From the NCBI GenBank assembly GCA_947384955.1, contig CANDJC010000011.1, positions 1-54,187 of the forward strand: a DNA stretch of 54,187 nt, read 5' to 3'. The notes under the pieces are model-generated. The model was given only the letters and a program-made list of their open reading frames with translations, was not told where the DNA came from and did not search any database. A program made the translations under genes and the position numbers. Position 1 is the first letter of the stretch, and each line of letters starts with the position of its first letter. The DNA is from an uncultured Eubacterium sp. (GTDB taxonomy: Bacteria > Bacillota > Clostridia > Lachnospirales > Lachnospiraceae). Positions 1,825-54,174 of the stretch are shown one piece after another.

Positions 1825-3009
1825 ATGGCAAACAAAGTAGTTTTAGCAGGCGCATGCCGTACCGCAATTGGTAAAATGGGCGGAGGATTAAGCAATACTC
1901 CGGTAGCAGATTTAGGAGCAATTGTAATCAAGGAAGCGTTAAACAGAGCAGGCGTAAAACCGGAGCAGGTTGATGAAGTATTAATGGGATGCGTAATCCA
2001 GGCAGCTCAGGGACAGAACGTTGCACGTCAGTCAGCTATCAAAGCAGGTCTTCCGAATGAAGTTCCGGCAGTTACATTAAACGTAGTATGCGGTTCAGGC
2101 TTAAAGTGTGTTAACGAAGCAGCAGCACAGATTCTTTCCGGACAGGCTGACATTGTTGTTGCAGGCGGCATGGAGAATATGTCAATGGCGCCATATGCTA
2201 TGACGAAAGCTCGTTTTGGTTACCGCATGAACAATGCGACAATTATCGATACGATGGTAAACGATGCTCTTACAGATGCGTTTAACCATTATCACATGAT
2301 GATTACAGCAGAAAACATCTGCGAGGAATACGGCCTTACAAGAGAAGAGCTTGATGCATTTGCAGCAAACAGCCAGCAGAAATGTGAAAAAGCGATTGCA
2401 GAAGGTAAATTTGATGACGAAATCGTTCCGGTACCGGTTAAGGTTAAGAAAGAAATCGTTGAATTCAAGAAGGATGAAGGCCCGCGTGCAGGCACAACAG
2501 CTGAGAGCCTTGCAAACTTAAAATGCTGCTCAGGCAAACAGGGCGGCATGATTACAGCAGGCAATGCTTCCGGTATCAATGACGGTGCAGCTGCAATCGT
2601 TGTTATGAGCGAAGAAAAAGCAAAAGAACTGGGCGTTACACCGATGGCTACATGGGTAGCAGGCGCACTCGGCGGTGTAAGACCGGAAGTTATGGGTATC
2701 GGTCCGGTAGCTTCTACAAAGAAAGTATTAGCTAAGACAGGCCTTACTATCGATGATATGGATTTAATCGAAGCAAACGAAGCATTTGCAGCACAGTCTG
2801 TTGCAGTTGCAAAGGATCTTGGATTTAATATGGACAAGGTAAACGTAAACGGCGGTGCAATCGCACTCGGACATCCGGTAGGAGCATCCGGCTGCCGTAT
2901 CCTTGTTACGCTGTTATACGAAATGCAGAAGAGAAATGCAAAGAGAGGTCTTGCTACATTATGTATCGGCGGCGGCATGGGCTGCTCTACAATTGTTGAA
3001 AGAGACTAA
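1825..3009 (+). CDS. thlA: Acetyl-CoA acetyltransferase (thiolase)
   Basis: This 394-residue protein has the normal length for biosynthetic thiolase II, which condenses two acetyl-CoA to acetoacetyl-CoA. The nucleophilic Cys lies in NVVCGSGLKC near residue 89. The C-terminal GGAIALGHPVGASGCR and CIGGGMG blocks carry the His and second Cys of the active site. The start follows AAGGAG at 1811-1816. It is the first gene of the butyrate cluster and shares its strongly biased codon use (GCA, ACA, AAA, GGC), typical of a highly expressed operon. The product is cytoplasmic and feeds the 3-hydroxybutyryl-CoA dehydrogenase encoded next. Confidence 0.95.
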   Translation: MANKVVLAGACRTAIGKMGGGLSNTPVADLGAIVIKEALNRAGVKPEQVDEVLMGCVIQAAQGQNVARQSAIKAGLPNEVPAVTLNVVCGSGLKCVNEAAAQILSGQADIVVAGGMENMSMAPYAMTKARFGYRMNNATIIDTMVNDALTDAFNHYHMMITAENICEEYGLTREELDAFAANSQQKCEKAIAEGKFDDEIVPVPVKVKKEIVEFKKDEGPRAGTTAESLANLKCCSGKQGGMITAGNASGINDGAAAIVVMSEEKAKELGVTPMATWVAGALGGVRPEVMGIGPVASTKKVLAKTGLTIDDMDLIEANEAFAAQSVAVAKDLGFNMDKVNVNGGAIALGHPVGASGCRILVTLLYEMQKRNAKRGLATLCIGGGMGCSTIVERD

Positions 3010-3063
3010 TCTCAGCAGCCAGTGTCTGTTTTAAAATGACACATGGAGTGTTTTGGAATGTAC

Positions 3064-3099
3064 ATATACCCGGGCAGCCGTCTGTGCTCTCGGGTATAT
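3064..3099 (+). repeat. Perfect 9-bp hairpin in the thl-hbd gap
   Basis: ATATACCCG at 3064-3072 and CGGGTATAT at 3091-3099 are exact complements around an 18-base loop. A smaller GCGGA/TCCGC hairpin follows at 3151-3170. No T-tract follows either, so neither looks like an intrinsic terminator. They may mark an mRNA processing or partial read-through site inside the operon. Confidence 0.6.
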
Positions 3100-3210
3100 C
3101 CAGTACGGGAAACATTGCAGATATAAAGGATAGTCAGAATGAAATATGCAGCGGACTTAGATGAATCCGCGATACTTAATATAAGCGAAAATATTTAAGG
3201 AGGAACTACA

Positions 3211-4050
3211 ATGAAAGTAGGAGTTATCGGCGCAGGAACTATGGGTTCCGGAATCGCACAGGCATTTGCACAGACAGAAGGATATGAAGTGTGCTTATGC
3301 GACATCAATGAAGAATTTGCTGCAAACGGCAAAAACAAAATTGCAAAAGGCTTTGAAAAAAGAGTTGCAAAGGGCAAAATGGCTCAGGAAGATGCTGACA
3401 AGATTTTGGCTAAAATCACAACAGGCGTAAAAGACATCTGCACAGACTGCGATTTGATTGTAGAAGCAGCTCTGGAAGTTATGGATGTTAAGAAACAGAC
3501 ATTCAAAGAACTGCAGGATATTGTAAAAGCTGACTGCATGTTCGCTACAAACACATCTTCTTTATCTGTTACAGAAATTGCAGCAGGACTTGACAGACCG
3601 GTTATCGGTATGCATTTCTTCAATCCGGCACCTGTTATGAAATTAATCGAGGTTATCCAGGGCGAGAATACTCCGGATGAAATGAGAGATAAAATCGTAG
3701 AAATTTCCAAAGCAATCGGCAAGACTCCGGTAGAAGTAAAAGAAGCTCCGGGCTTTGTTGTAAACAGAATCTTAATCCCGATGATTAACGAAGCAATCGG
3801 TATTTATGCAGACGGCGTTGCATCTGTAGAAGGTATCGATACCGCTATGAAGCTTGGTGCAAATCATCCAATGGGACCTCTTGCATTAGGCGATTTAGTA
3901 GGTCTGGATATCTGCCTTGCCATCATGAATGTATTATATGACGAAACAGGCGATCCAAAATACCGTCCGCATCCATTATTAAAGAAAATGGTACGCGCAG
4001 GCAAGCTTGGCATGAAGACAGGCAAAGGTTTCTACGATTACAGCAAATAA
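3211..4050 (+). CDS. hbd: 3-hydroxybutyryl-CoA dehydrogenase
   Basis: The 279-residue protein reduces acetoacetyl-CoA to 3-hydroxybutyryl-CoA with NAD(P)H. An N-terminal Rossmann fold shows [11 protein letters not shown] from residue 7. The family signature is present: [11 protein letters not shown], then [17 protein letters not shown] with the catalytic His. The helical C-terminal domain ends in GKGFYDYSK, as usual. The start follows AAGGAGG at about 3198-3204. It lies 201 bases after thl with no crotonase gene between them, although crotonase performs the next step. Length and motifs leave little doubt. Confidence 0.95.
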
Positions 4051-4166
4051 TATAGAAAAAATGGCAGCAGCGGGTTTTCCGGGCTGTTACAGGAAATGAA
4101 AACAGAACAGGCACAGGCTGCGGATTTATGCAGTCTGTGCAATCAGTAAATGGAGGAGTAAGTATC

Positions 4167-5321
4167 ATGGATTTTTCTTTAGATAAGAAACATGAAATGG
4201 CGAGAACTTTATTTAAAGATTTCGCTGAAACAGAAGTAAAACCTCTTGCTCAGGAGGTAGATGAAACAGAACATTTTCCGGCTGACACAGTGAAAAAGAT
4301 GGCAAAAGCCGGCTTTATGGGGATTCCGGTTCCGAAGGAATACGGCGGACAGGGCTGCGATCCTCTTACATATACAATGTGTGTAGAAGAATTATCAAAA
4401 GTGTGCGGCACAACAGGCGTTATTGTATCTGCACATACCTCTTTATGCATTGACCCGATTATGACATATGGTACAGAAGAACAGAAGAAGAAATATGTCG
4501 TACCGCTTGCAAAAGGCGAGAAGCTTGGCGCATTCGGTCTGACAGAGCCGGGCGCTGGTACAGATGCTCAGGGCTGCCAGACAAAGGCTGTTTTAGACGG
4601 CGACGAATGGGTGCTGAACGGCTCGAAATGCTTTATCACAAACGGTGAAGTAGGCGACGTTTATATTATTATTGCGATTACAAGCATTACAGAAGACAAG
4701 AGAGGCAGGAAGAAGAAAAACTTCTCTGCATTTATCGTGGAAAAAGGCACACCGGGATTTTCTTTCGGTACAAAAGAAAAGAAGATGGGTATCCGCGGTT
4801 CTTCCACTTACGAGCTGATTTTTGAAGACTGCAGAATTCCGAAGGATGCGCTTCTCGGACCGGAAGGCAAAGGCTTCCCGATTGCAATGCATACATTAGA
4901 CGGCGGACGTATCGGTATCGCTGCACAGGCTCTCGGCATCGCAGAAGGCGCTTTAGAACGCGCGATTGAATATACAAAAGAAAGAAAACAGTTCGGCCGT
5001 TCCATTGCACAGCAGCAGAATACACAGTTCAAGCTGGCTGATATGGCTGCAAGAATCGATGCAGCAAAATTCTTAGTATACCGTGCAGCAATGGCAAAAG
5101 CAACACAGAGAGTTTACTCTGTAGAAGCAGCAAAAGCAAAACTGTTTGCAGCAGAGACAGCAATGGCAGTTACAACAGAAGTGGTTCAGCTGTTCGGCGG
5201 ATACGGATACATCAGGGAGTATGATGTAGAACGTATGATGCGTGACGCTAAGATTACAGAGATTTACGAAGGAACATCAGAAGTTCAGCGTATGGTAATC
5301 TCTGGTGCGTTATTAAAATAA
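4167..5321 (+). CDS. bcd: Butyryl-CoA dehydrogenase (acyl-CoA dehydrogenase)
   Basis: This FAD enzyme of 384 residues reduces crotonyl-CoA to butyryl-CoA, coupled to EtfAB, which in clostridia also bifurcates electrons to ferredoxin. [15 protein letters not shown] and the C-terminal [13 protein letters not shown], which holds the catalytic Glu, are the standard acyl-CoA dehydrogenase blocks. The ATG at 4167 is preferred over the in-frame ATG at 4128 because GGAGGA at 4152-4157 sits at proper distance and [11 protein letters not shown] matches the usual N-terminus. The etfB and etfA genes follow directly, as expected for the Bcd/Etf complex. Confidence 0.95.
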
Positions 5322-8236: not shown

Positions 8237-8414
8237 AGGGAGGATAGGCCTGATGGAAAGATACTGCAGTTTCCTGGCAGTCTGGAAATATAGTAAATTT
8301 TGCTGCCGCACAGACAGCTGCATTTCTCTGTCTCGCGGCGGGGCATGAAATACCAGTGCATTTGCTAAAAAGCCTGTACAGACCTGTCTGAACGGTTATT
8401 ATCATTTATTGTAA

Positions 8415-12468: not shown

Positions 12469-12769
12469 ATGTCGCATATCTGCTGGTATAAAGTGTACTC
12501 CCGACACATATTCTTTATTTGATACTAAAAATATTTCTTAAATCCCTTTCTCTGTAGTATGTAAATACATCTTTGAAATAAATTTTCACCCGCTAGTTTC
12601 TAAATTAAAATGTCGGAGCCTTTCATTTGATAAATTCGCAGCTTCCTAATACATTCTTATAATTTTTTAAAGTAACAGTTCAGACAGCTTCCCAGCCTCT
12701 TTCAGTCTTCCTGCCATATAAGAATGCAGCAGCGAATTCCCTAATTTCAAGTAAAACCTGTGAAAACCA

Positions 12770-13010
12770 GCCGGGTGACGGGAAGATGCACCGGATTCCT
12801 GTGACATCGGAGGAATGTTTAGAATCCCTTAGCTTTCTGCCGCGATAACCAGGCGGCGAAGCCGAAGCGGCACCGGTAGCTGCTGGCAGAAGGCCAGGGC
12901 GAATAGGTGCCGCGTCCCGTCCGGTGCCACAGCATAAATGCAGAATGCTTAGGGATTCTTAACATTCCAGACCCGTCACAGGAATCCGGTGCATCTTCCC
13001 GTCACCCGGC
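12770..13010 (+). repeat. Large palindromic element, copy 1
   Basis: The outer arms 12770-12805 and 12975-13010 form a perfect 36-bp palindrome. Inside, 12812-12840 and 12940-12968 pair at 26 of 29 positions, with T-T mismatches 10 bases apart. The core between them holds a nested hairpin: GCGGCACC (12867-12874) with GGTGCCGC (12906-12913), enclosing CTGGC (12883-12887) with GCCAG (12893-12897). GGCACCGG (12869-12876) could instead pair with CCGGTGCC (12921-12928). The core from ATCGGA (12806) is nearly identical to copy 2 in inverted orientation at 53937-54174. The flanks read AAAACCAGCCGGG on the left and CCCGGCGTCCGAGGGG on the right. There is no coding sequence inside. Confidence 0.92.
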
Positions 13011-13083
13011 GTCCGAGGGGCCATAATATCCCCCTTCTCCTGTCCGAACTATTACTAAAAATGTAAAAAAAGTATTATATTTA

Positions 13084-16575: not shown

Positions 16576-16613
16576 AGCAGGAAGAAACAGCCTGTTTTCA
16601 AGCAAAGCTTTAA

Positions 16614-16673
16614 GAAAACAGCCGGGCAGCGGGAAGCCGGGACATTTTCCCGCTGCCCGGTGTTTGAGAGGAC
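16614..16673 (+). repeat. Short hairpin repeat with the same edges as the large palindromes
   Basis: CCGGGCAGCGGGAA at 16622-16635 and TTCCCGCTGCCCGG at 16647-16660 are exact complements around an 11-base loop. The left flank AAAACAGCCGGG and right flank CCCGGTGTTTGAGAGG match the flanks of the large element at 12764-13020. The 165-base core is missing. No T-tract follows, so a terminator role for ptsI is uncertain. Confidence 0.75.
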
Positions 16674-16703
16674 GCAGTCATATCAGTTTACAGGAGGACA
16701 TCG

Positions 16704-24287: not shown

Positions 24288-24342
24288 TATCTGAACTGTT
24301 ACGCAATTACAACAAGGACGCACTGCACAAAAAAGAAAATTC

Positions 24343-43201: not shown

Positions 43202-43226
43202 GGCCTCTCCCGGCGTCCGAGAGGCC
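43202..43226. repeat. Short hairpin containing the palindrome-family edge motif
   Basis: GGCCTCTC at 43202-43209 and GAGAGGCC at 43219-43226 are exact complements around CCGGCGTCC. The stretch CCCGGCGTCCGAGAGG matches the right flank of the large palindrome at 13005-13020 (CCCGGCGTCCGAGGGG). Confidence 0.7.
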
Positions 43227-43296
43227 ACTACCCCCACTTCCCTCTAAAAAAAATCTTCCTTCCCCGCTTTCGATTCTTTGCAATTCTCAAAAAAGG

Positions 43297-51957: not shown

Positions 51958-52452
51958 GTATGGGACAGAGATTCCGAGATTTTAATACTTGGAACGTTTC
52001 CCTCGGTAAAATCGCGGGAACAGAATTTTTATTATGGTCATCCGCAGAACCGTTTCTGGAAACTGATAGCGGCAGTTTATGAAGAGTCTGTGCCGGAAAC
52101 AATAGAAGAAAAAAAGAAACTGATTCTCAGGCATCATCTGGCTGTCTGGGATGTGATAGGACAGTGTGATATTATCGGTTCTTCGGACAGCAGCATCCGC
52201 AGTGTGATTCCCTGTGACCTTGCCGGACTGCTGAAGGAAACGCAGATTCATACCGTGATTGCAAACGGGGCAAAAGCATATGAACTGTACGGAAAATACC
52301 AGCTGCCTCAGACAGGCATTCCGGCACAGAAGCTCCCGTCAACCAGTCCGGCAAATGCGGCATGGTCTCTGGAGCGGCTGAAAGAAGCATGGGGCAGGGT
52401 ACTGCTTAGAGAAGGCCGTATTTTAGACCAGGAAGCGGAGGAATATGCATGA
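51919..52452 (+). CDS. DNA-deoxyinosine glycosylase (uracil-DNA glycosylase superfamily)
   Basis: The 177-residue protein has ILILGTFPSVKSREQNFYYG and HPQNRFWKLIAAVY, the motif 1 region of the HDG/family 6 group of the uracil-DNA glycosylase superfamily. The C-terminal LPSTSPANAAWSLERL holds the second motif. It should remove deaminated adenine from DNA. The ATG at 51919 follows AGGGGG at 51904-51909. Its 5' end lies in a tandem repeat. It overlaps the glycerate kinase gene by 4 bases. Confidence 0.88.
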   Translation: METYQTVKHTFDPVWDRDSEILILGTFPSVKSREQNFYYGHPQNRFWKLIAAVYEESVPETIEEKKKLILRHHLAVWDVIGQCDIIGSSDSSIRSVIPCDLAGLLKETQIHTVIANGAKAYELYGKYQLPQTGIPAQKLPSTSPANAAWSLERLKEAWGRVLLREGRILDQEAEEYA

Positions 52453-53600
52453 AAATTGTGATTGCAATGGATTCTTTTAAAGGAAGCATGAGCTCGATGG
52501 AAGCAGGAAACGCAGCAAAAGAAGGGATCAGGCGGTGCTGTCATGCGGATATTATTGTAAAACCTCTGGCTGACGGCGGTGAAGGGACTACGGATGCGCT
52601 GGTGGAAGGGCTGGGCGGCAGGCTTATATTCAAAGAAGTGACAGGCCCGCTGGGCATCAAAACAACAGCAAAATACGGAATTTTATCAGACCAGAAGACA
52701 GCGGTAATGGAAATGGCCCAGGCCGCCGGCATTACGCTTTTAAAACGGGAAGAGCTGCAGCCGTTAAGGGCGACGACAAAGGGTGTGGGAGAAATGATTC
52801 TGGATGCCGCAGACCGCGGATGCAGGGAATTTATCATCGGCATTGGCGGAAGCGCGTCCACAGACGGCGGCACCGGCATGCTTCAGGCGCTGGGTTATGA
52901 GATTCTGGATGAAACAGGCCGTCCGATACGTCCGGGTATCCAGGATTTAGGGCGCATTACGCACATTTCAGACCGCAATGTCCCAAAAGCACTGCAGGAA
53001 TGCCATTTTAGCATAGCCTGTGATGTGAAAAATCCTCTCTGCGGAGAAAACGGAGCCGTCAGCATATTTGGCCCGCAAAAAGGTGTCCGTAAAGAGGACA
53101 TCCCGGCTTTTGACAGCTGGATGCGGCATTTTGCTCATAAAACAAAAGAGTTTACAGGAAAAGACTGTCAGCTGGCAGAAGGAGCGGGCGCTGCGGGCGG
53201 ACTGGGATTTGCATTTGTCAGCTATCTTGCAAATGCCGAACTAAAATCCGGTATTGATATTGTGCTGGAAGCAGTGCAGCTGGAACAGGAAATAAAGGAT
53301 GCAGATTTTGTGATTACCGGCGAAGGGTGCCTGGATGCTCAGACGGTTATGGGAAAAGTGCCGTCTGGAGCGGCCCGGCTGGCGAAAAAATACGGTGTAA
53401 AAGTAATTGCCTTTGCCGGATGCGTCACGAAGGATGCATCGGCATGCAACAGCGCGGGCATTGACGCGTTTTTTCCGATTGTACGGGGTGTTACAACACT
53501 GGATGAGGCAATGCATACAGAGAATGCAAAAGAAAATCTGGCTTTATCGGCAGAACAGGTCTTCCGTGCGCTGCAGACAGTGAAGGGGAACTTCTGTTAA
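52449..53600 (+). CDS. Glycerate kinase (GarK/GlxK family)
   Basis: The 383-residue enzyme phosphorylates glycerate, most likely to 2-phosphoglycerate. It opens MKIVIAMDSFKGSMSSMEA and shows PLADGGEGTTDAL, FIIGIGGSASTDGGTGMLQALG and the later DFVITGEGCLDAQTVMGK and PSGAARLAKKYG blocks of the class I family. The length is normal. It starts inside the end of the glycosylase gene with GGAGGAA upstream, so translation is coupled, although the two functions are unrelated. Confidence 0.93.
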   Translation: MKIVIAMDSFKGSMSSMEAGNAAKEGIRRCCHADIIVKPLADGGEGTTDALVEGLGGRLIFKEVTGPLGIKTTAKYGILSDQKTAVMEMAQAAGITLLKREELQPLRATTKGVGEMILDAADRGCREFIIGIGGSASTDGGTGMLQALGYEILDETGRPIRPGIQDLGRITHISDRNVPKALQECHFSIACDVKNPLCGENGAVSIFGPQKGVRKEDIPAFDSWMRHFAHKTKEFTGKDCQLAEGAGAAGGLGFAFVSYLANAELKSGIDIVLEAVQLEQEIKDADFVITGEGCLDAQTVMGKVPSGAARLAKKYGVKVIAFAGCVTKDASACNSAGIDAFFPIVRGVTTLDEAMHTENAKENLALSAEQVFRALQTVKGNFC

Positions 53601-53638: not shown

Positions 53639-53896
53639 ATGGCAGAGTTAGTATCTATGATGAATATTGGCAGAGAGATGGCAAAAAAGCTGGATTCTGT
53701 GGGAATTTGTTCGGCGGAGGAATTGATTCGTATGGGTGCGCAGCAGGCTTTTTTGAAATTGAAGGACAGGTATCCGAATGTCTGTCTGGTGCATTTGTAT
53801 GCGCTGGAGGGGGCAGTCTGCGGCGTGGAATTTAATACGCTTTCGGAGGGGAGGAAAAGGGAGCTGAAAGAGTTTAGTGATTTTTTAAAGAGGTAA
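53639..53896 (+). CDS. TfoX C-terminal domain protein
   Basis: The 85-residue protein consists only of the TfoX C-terminal domain: LVSMMNIGREMAKKLDSVGICSAEEL-type helix-hairpin-helix sequence (split here), then GAQQAFLKLKDRYPN and LYALEGAV. TfoX regulates competence in Gammaproteobacteria, but this short form has no proven role in Firmicutes. The ATG follows TAGGAGGGG. It lies 38 bases after glycerate kinase and just before the large palindrome. Confidence 0.88.
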   Translation: MAELVSMMNIGREMAKKLDSVGICSAEELIRMGAQQAFLKLKDRYPNVCLVHLYALEGAVCGVEFNTLSEGRKRELKEFSDFLKR

Positions 53897-53936
53897 GCGC
53901 AGCAGTTCGGGCATGGGGTGTGCTGGCTGCACGGAC

Positions 53937-54174
53937 GCCGGGAGAGGGGATTTGCACGGTCTTCCAGCGGCTGCTCCAGAATGTTAAGAATCCCTAAGTA
54001 TTCTGCATTTACGCTGTGGCACCGGACGGGACGCGGCACCTATTCGCCCTGGCCTGCAGCCAGCAGCTACCGGTGCCGCTACGGCTTCGCCGCCTGGTTT
54101 TTTAGCAGAATACTAAGGGATTCTAAACATTTTTCCGATGCCGCTGGAAGACCGTGCAAATCCCCTCTCCCGGC
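53937..54174 (-). repeat. Large palindromic element, copy 2 (inverted relative to copy 1)
   Basis: The arms 53937-53971 and 54140-54174 are a perfect 35-bp palindrome that differs from copy 1 at many positions. Inside, 53979-54006 and the stretch from 54105 form the conserved imperfect stem with the same T-T mismatches as copy 1. On the minus strand the core reads ATCGGA, later GGCGGCGAAGCCG, then GAATAGGTGCCGCG, almost as in copy 1 with about ten changes. The minus-strand flanks are AAAACAGCCGGG and CCCGGCGTCCGTG, again matching copy 1. Confidence 0.92.

Follow-up and report, generated by a model that had tools for sequence, protein, structure and literature searches.

The window analysed here, a stretch of 54,187 nucleotides forming contig C11 of an uncultured Eubacterium sp. 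(Lachnospiraceae), carries two long hairpins on opposite strands, together with two probable fragments of the same kind of element (Table 1). A first-pass annotation had described perfect enclosing palindromes of 36 and 35 bp, and reverse-complement comparison confirmed that both are exact, the second being formed by 53937-53971 and 54140-54174. The predicted folds were far more stable than those of shuffled sequences (folding energy z of -15.66 for copy 1 and -15.27 for copy 2), with 0 of 200 shuffles as good for each copy. The nested 8-bp stem that had been noticed in the core appears in the predicted fold, and the two T·T mismatches, 10 bases apart, are present in the inner stems of both copies (12820·12960 and 12830·12950 in copy 1, as read from the sequence). 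The description of the cores as nearly identical holds for the middle but not for the outer parts: between the perfect arms, 151 of 169 aligned columns (89%) are identical, with the differences lying mostly in the outer portions of this region.

The gene preceding the outer flank of copy 2 encodes a glycerate kinase (52449-53600, by Pfam assignment). As shown below, elements of this kind have arms of either type A or type B. Copy 1 belongs to type A, and a profile search detected no upstream B partner for it within the window; copy 2 is a B element, any partner of which would fall past the contig end. The region of the probable remnant gave weak profile hits over 16590-16679 (best E 4.4e-4). 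Separately, a motif, TGTCTGAACTGTTAC, occurs with at most 2 changes at 8385-8399, 24288-24302 and, on the minus strand and just upstream of copy 1, at 12672-12686, as well as beyond the outer flank of copy 1 near 13041.

Table 1. Hairpin elements and related features in the window
Feature	Position	Strand	Basis or remark
Copy 1 (type A), inner flank (partner-facing side in paired copies)	12739..12769	+	profile match from 12739, common to copies
Copy 1, 5' outer arm, 36 nt	12770..12805	+	exact reverse complement of 12975-13010
Copy 1, 5' side of inner stem, AATGTTTAGAATCCCTTAG, with T·T positions 12820 and 12830	12814..12832	+	pattern match
Copy 1, nested 8-bp stem (12867-12874 / 12906-12913) enclosing an inner hairpin with variable loop	12867..12913	+	predicted fold and consensus fold (26 copies)
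Copy 1, 3' side of inner stem, T·T partners 12950 and 12960	12948..12966	+	sequence
Copy 1, 3' outer arm	12975..13010	+	reverse complement of the 5' arm
Copy 1, outer flank (GTCCGNNNNNCCA, then C-rich tract), gene-facing	13011..13067	+	profile match to 13067, alignments
Probable core-less remnant	16622..16660	+	perfect 14-bp palindrome (16622-16635 / 16647-16660), family-like flanks
Probable solo outer end without hairpin	43204..43253	+	profile hit, E 9.2e-5
Copy 2, outer flank, downstream of the glycerate kinase gene	53883..53936	-	profile match 54183-53883
Copy 2 (type B), whole hairpin	53937..54174	-	contig end 13 bases beyond

The two copies belong to a large family. Allowing up to 3 mismatches, the inner-stem pattern matched 256 times on the forward and 244 times on the reverse strand of the 5.06 Mb genome from which the window derives (G000), compared with 1 and 0 matches for the reversed control. 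Each inner stem is matched a second time, in the opposite direction, through its 3' side, so these matches correspond to approximately 250 elements. The first-pass annotation had proposed a search of related genomes: of 98 genomes, 9 contained matches, all of them among the 13 of the same genus, and none of the 85 others did. No match was found in viral contigs searched with an exact pattern, nor in plasmid and phage records searched with blastn at E 1e-3. The hairpin pattern recurs across separate assemblies, including a locus (L038) from G004, a genome in 6 contigs, where a probable nearby partner lacks the core but has kept perfect 25-nt arms. Many of the searched genomes are metagenome assemblies in hundreds of contigs. 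Many G000 contigs begin or end in or beside an element (for example, C11:54187, C13:52228 and C57:1), so that the true numbers of copies and pairs are probably underestimated.

A unit consists of a quasi-palindrome about 240 bases long, bordered by short flanks, and contains no gene. Drawing on 40 fetched stretches of G000 in addition to the search hits, we found that neighbouring elements less than 3 kb apart were divergent in 41 of 43 cases in G000 and in 37 of 41 in other species (one pair is counted twice in each set, as loci L022/L072 and L033/L107 overlap), and that 40 of the 41 divergent G000 pairs combine one A and one B arm type. The arms of the two window copies do differ while staying complementary, as originally noticed, and the difference is that between the A and B types of a single family. 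Within 15 pairs, the cores differed by 7.0%, compared to 10.6% for shuffled A-B partners, with 0 of 2000 shuffles as low. The 3' flank (GTCC...CCA, followed by a C-rich tract) points outward, toward open reading frames (ORFs) of both orientations; within the stretches fetched, 87 of 89 elements have an outer-side ORF, the two orientations being represented 46 and 41 times. The 5' flank is turned toward a spacer, which measures between 2 and 2402 bases.

Most spacers lack a long frame, whereas some of the longer ones contain ordinary genes, such as acetyltransferases. Six long spacers were translated and the frames of five, leaving out a 319-codon frame of L022, were scanned against Pfam, yielding acetyltransferase, SocA_Panacea and HTH domains in 4 spacers, with no match at E 0.01 for two frames of L060. 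By eye, one frame in the L060 spacer (2606-5007) resembles a piece of an IS3-type transposase. In L005, L013, L009 and L023, the spacers between hairpins contain tandem repeats, some of them of arm and inner-flank sequence. Classification of the flanks of 212 copies gave 201 inner-outer, 7 outer-outer, 1 inner-inner and 3 undecided cases, where the G000 outer-outer copy and the inner-inner case both read as inner-outer by eye, and the remaining six copies with outer flanks on both sides, all from other species, are probably collapsed pairs. A flip-flop of the core relative to the flanks, which we considered as a possible behavior of these elements, was seen in none of the 212. An identical extra stretch is present in the cores of L093 (type B) and L094 (type A), suggesting exchange of core sequence between A and B elements.

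The outer arms combine extensive sequence divergence with nearly perfect pairing. Among 81 G000 copies (one of 82, L007-1840, was left out of the arm counts), 36 of 2553 outer pairs were mismatched, even though arm sequences of the same type differ by 14.5-15%. Counted over the best stretch, with 6 of 211 copies left unparsed, mismatches amounted to 25 of 2743 arm pairs in G000 and 134 of 3982 in other species, the arms of which are less perfect. The T·T mismatches are kept at each position in 206 of the 208 copies, out of 211, that entered this count, while adjacent pairs change, and the arm-side internal loop is asymmetric in 80 of the 81 G000 copies (all but L028). In a consensus fold built from 26 copies picked by hand (12 from G000 and 14 from other genomes of the genus, out of about 205 parsed), 44 of 71 pairs had both-sided changes. 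Summing the consensus-fold output over 30 outer pairs (columns 15 to 45) in the 26 copies gave 200 both-sided and 6 one-sided changes and 14 broken or gapped pairs among 780 cells; given the common ancestry of the copies, these counts do not represent independent events.

To ask how the pairing is kept, we compared the decay of arms and core. One-arm mismatches occurred at a rate of 0.70% per site (0.44% once a single hypervariable position is left out), compared with 0.49% for conserved core columns; both arm figures are given because omitting the position biases the arm rate low, and the core rate is itself biased low by the restriction to columns with at most 5% non-consensus letters (114 of 155). 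Leaving out the hypervariable position, 22 arm mismatches were observed against 24.3 expected at the core rate. The spectra were alike as well, with transitions accounting for 31 of 36 one-arm mismatches and 37 of 45 core substitutions. In contrast, paired differences between nearest-neighbour copies, which numbered 54 transitions and 47 transversions alongside 21 one-arm differences, departed significantly from the 31 to 5 ratio of one-arm mismatches (Fisher p 0.00055). Arm mismatches per copy did not correlate with private core substitutions (Spearman -0.08), although with so few events this comparison is weak either way. Because one-arm mismatches match private core substitutions in both rate and spectrum, there appears to be no ongoing arm-to-arm repair in resident copies. 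The one-arm mismatches look like ordinary decay after insertion, and the paired differences look inherited from differing source copies; judging by these rates and spectra, pairing is probably either restored in the making of a new copy or a requirement that source copies have to satisfy. The earlier suggestion that one arm is repaired from the other is thus not supported for resident copies and could apply at the copying step.

One form such renewal might take, tentatively, is self-templating, whereby, in each round of copying, one outer arm would serve as the template for snap-back synthesis of the other, as far as the conserved internal loop, so that the arms would drift in matched double changes, new copies would be reset to a perfect palindrome, and the T·T mismatches and the loop would mark the point where re-templating stops. 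If true, this would amount to rolling-hairpin-like copying of a chromosomal repeat. Unlikely, in our estimate, is replication template switching (quasi-palindrome correction), in which arm is copied onto arm in place, keeping resident copies perfect. Template switching is a known mechanism for keeping stems paired, with loop inversion an expected by-product (PMC8794818), and it would accommodate the probable core-less palindromes with perfect arms, both in the window (16622-16660) and in L038 (the 25-nt pair), as well as L028, where the internal loop has been homogenised too. However, arm mismatches are not depleted relative to the core at either arm rate, the paired and one-arm changes differ in spectrum as given above, the T·T mismatches and the internal loop persist beside changing pairs, and a core inverted relative to its flanks was found in none of the 212 classified copies despite the expectation of loop inversion.

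Evidence of mobility comes mainly from a sister species (G005), where homology ends at tips, AGCGAACAA...TTGTTCGCT, that are inverted at both ends; terminal inverted repeats are thus present in G005, whereas the ends in G000 lack definition, and the tips differ between species. After removal of TAC repeats, YTAR preceded 53 of the 73 outer tips and 27 of the 59 inner ones, against a background of 0.9%; it directly preceded 38 outer and 6 inner tips. In one locus (L213), the core of a hairpin is interrupted at a CTAG by a second, 335-base hairpin unit, which has CTAG on either side. The arms of the two host halves are still complementary, so the halves were once a single hairpin, and the uninterrupted copies act as the empty site for this insertion, which is the sole clean nested case seen. 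A further 26 G005 tip pairs have equal 4-mers, in a tabulation of matching pairs only in which some pairs have a tip in common; such matching flanks are partly expected from the CTAG preference, and a 4-bp duplication of CTAG and a 2-bp duplication of TA look the same. In G000, no target duplication is defined.

Comparison of sites across the genus found the asd site occupied in 3 of 12 genomes, and likewise the leuS site in 3 of 13. The distance from the end of the upstream ORF to asd is 83-201 bases in 7 genomes (L174, where the contig cuts the asd locus, was left out of the empty-site reading). The gene beyond the asd pair in G000 differs from the usual neighbour, so this is not a clean empty site, and a rearrangement there is possible. 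In two loci (L063:2848-3005 and L020:987-1144), a different palindromic element (TACACCGTAAAATAAATAACTGG...) lies in a hairpin core just after the same CTAG, apparently a hotspot for insertion. At G005 loci such as L207, L216 and L145, many hairpin tips have beside them a second family of repeats, with ends CTAGAGCGTGTTTGAAAAAT. Among the guesses of the first-pass annotation, a hairpin-moving element without its own transposase fits best, given the approximately 250 copies, the terminal repeats and YTAR targets in the sister species, and the nested insertion with CTAG on both sides.

We searched for a partner enzyme among four transposase families, and none of the hits to them belonged to an autonomous element with the same ends. 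PF13546 (DDE_5), which we take to be IS701-type, occurs in 5 of the 13 genus genomes and is absent from G000; the tips never bracket the gene in 20 fetched loci, and the tip-like matches there come mostly from one identical context. PF13586 (DDE_Tnp_1_2), presumably linked to IS5, and PF13358 (DDE_3), presumably IS630-type, were each found in neither of two genomes, G000 and G005. The fourth family, Y1_Tnp (PF01797), did not qualify either: the fetched loci are not bracketed, and one genome with many elements (G002) has no Y1 match. Of the three longest fetched tip-to-tip spans of G005 (1574, 1156 and 1028 bases), one contained a prephenate dehydrogenase gene, one encoded an Rrf2-type regulator and one had no frame longer than 123 codons; none held a transposase.

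These results bear on an alternative that we regard as improbable, namely, an element resembling REPs whose folded single strand is moved by an HUH (Y1) transposase, with the A/B pairs as the equivalent of a REP heterodimer. REP dimers are often inverted heterodimers, without an obvious explanation (PMC3733652), imperfect bulged palindromes matter for one TnpA-REP group (PMC8266576), and Y1 matches are present in 11 of the 13 genus genomes, but the hairpins exceed REPs 6- to 12-fold in length, G002 combines many elements with no Y1 match, and only 1 of 30 fetched Y1 loci (L251) has an element, on one side of the gene only. Inverted tips with YTAR flanks are also not the pattern known for Y1 transposases.

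Also improbable is the reading as a functional structured RNA that spread as a regulatory or small RNA, with the covariation arising from selection on RNA folding. The both-sided changes at 44 of 71 consensus pairs would fit it, as would the pooled mismatches, where G·T/T·G outnumber A·C/C·A about 2:1 (78 against 41, p 0.0009), and the frequent wobble at two inner-stem pairs in other species. However, G·T is the mildest mismatch in single-stranded DNA too, and the G·T excess and inner-stem wobble are also in the direction expected of folded single-stranded DNA. Wobble makes up about 1% of outer arm pairs, nearly half of the paired changes are transversions, which are impassable via G·U, and the hairpins showed no orientation preference with respect to flanking ORFs (46 against 41). 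The window had 0 Rfam matches at the gathering threshold, and the sole hit at E up to 10 was to a microRNA model, where its 19.4 bits fall short of the gathering score of 54. An RNA role for the hairpin, one of the possibilities raised initially, is thus weakly supported.

We consider it reasonably likely that all these hairpins form one family of non-autonomous, MITE-like mobile elements, mobilised in trans by a putative enzyme that recognises the folded strand, with complementarity renewed or selected in source copies. In G000, the copies sit between genes, mostly as divergent A and B pairs around a variable spacer. For the units and pairs with defined ends at YTAR in G005, a DNA transposase acting in trans would be the simplest cause. 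The folded strand is probably what this putative enzyme recognises, in which case the T·T mismatches, the asymmetric internal loop and the fixed core would hold shape and orientation, leaving the arm letters free to change. Equal decay of arm and core in resident copies implies that complementarity is most likely renewed or selected in the sources, rather than continuously repaired in place.

Covariation is usually read as strong evidence of a functional RNA. Here, strong covariation occurs alongside signs of DNA mobility, and wobble intermediates are very scarce in the outer arms, making this family a cautionary case. It is also a natural system for studying how paired changes arise, where hundreds of copies per genome let the age of mismatches be compared with the age of copies.

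The first-pass annotation knew of no named element with such a layout, which is fair for this family within our limited literature search, but bacterial MITEs and REP heterodimers come close. That search found no literature on miniature inverted repeats in Lachnospiraceae or Clostridia/Firmicutes, and among the matches listed for plexicaudatum repeats none concerned this hairpin family by title. Like the present family, integron attC sites are conserved in structure and variable in sequence. Bacterial MITEs (Correia/NEMIS, RUP, ERIC and others) are likewise small, multi-copy, non-autonomous and strongly folded, and in several of their families there are terminal repeats, a duplicated target and a TA at either end (PMC2229807). 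Many dispersed copies without a transposase gene, as in MITEs, are found here (about 250), but MITEs measure about 100-200 bases compared with the 335 between CTAGs in L213, and in our family a unit pairs with itself over its length as a single long hairpin whose inner stem is marked by mismatches, the arms vary in pairs, and the units mostly form A/B divergent pairs.

Palindromic intergenic repeats targeted by a YTAR-choosing element are known from Brucella, where the Bru-RS palindromes are targets of IS711, which chooses YTAR and duplicates TA (PMC2266754, PMC3163539). In the present family, the hairpin's CTAG has received insertions both of another family member (L213) and of a different palindromic element (L020, L063). 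Bru-RS1 is 103 bp long, paired arm variation is not mentioned in the available portions of those reports (PMC2266754, PMC3163539), and DDE_3 is absent from G000 and G005. The YTAR target is also shared with IS5, an insertion of which carries a YTAR duplication (PMC10359306), whereas PF13586 was not found in G000 or G005.

REP elements and dimers and TIRYT-associated repeats resemble the present family in being palindromic, intergenic and often arranged as inverted dimers, many of them heterodimers, with variable spacers (PMC3733652). They differ in their size of 20-40 bp, in their GTAG or CGTC tags and, for GTAG, in a linked RAYT gene, compared with hairpins of about 240 bases for which we found no linked Y1 gene. 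The size and linked Y1 gene of REPs are both lacking; in G005, the features of MITEs are present except for a known partner, a candidate duplication having been seen cleanly once. In its workings the hairpin family resembles a bacterial MITE, and in its arrangement a REP heterodimer.
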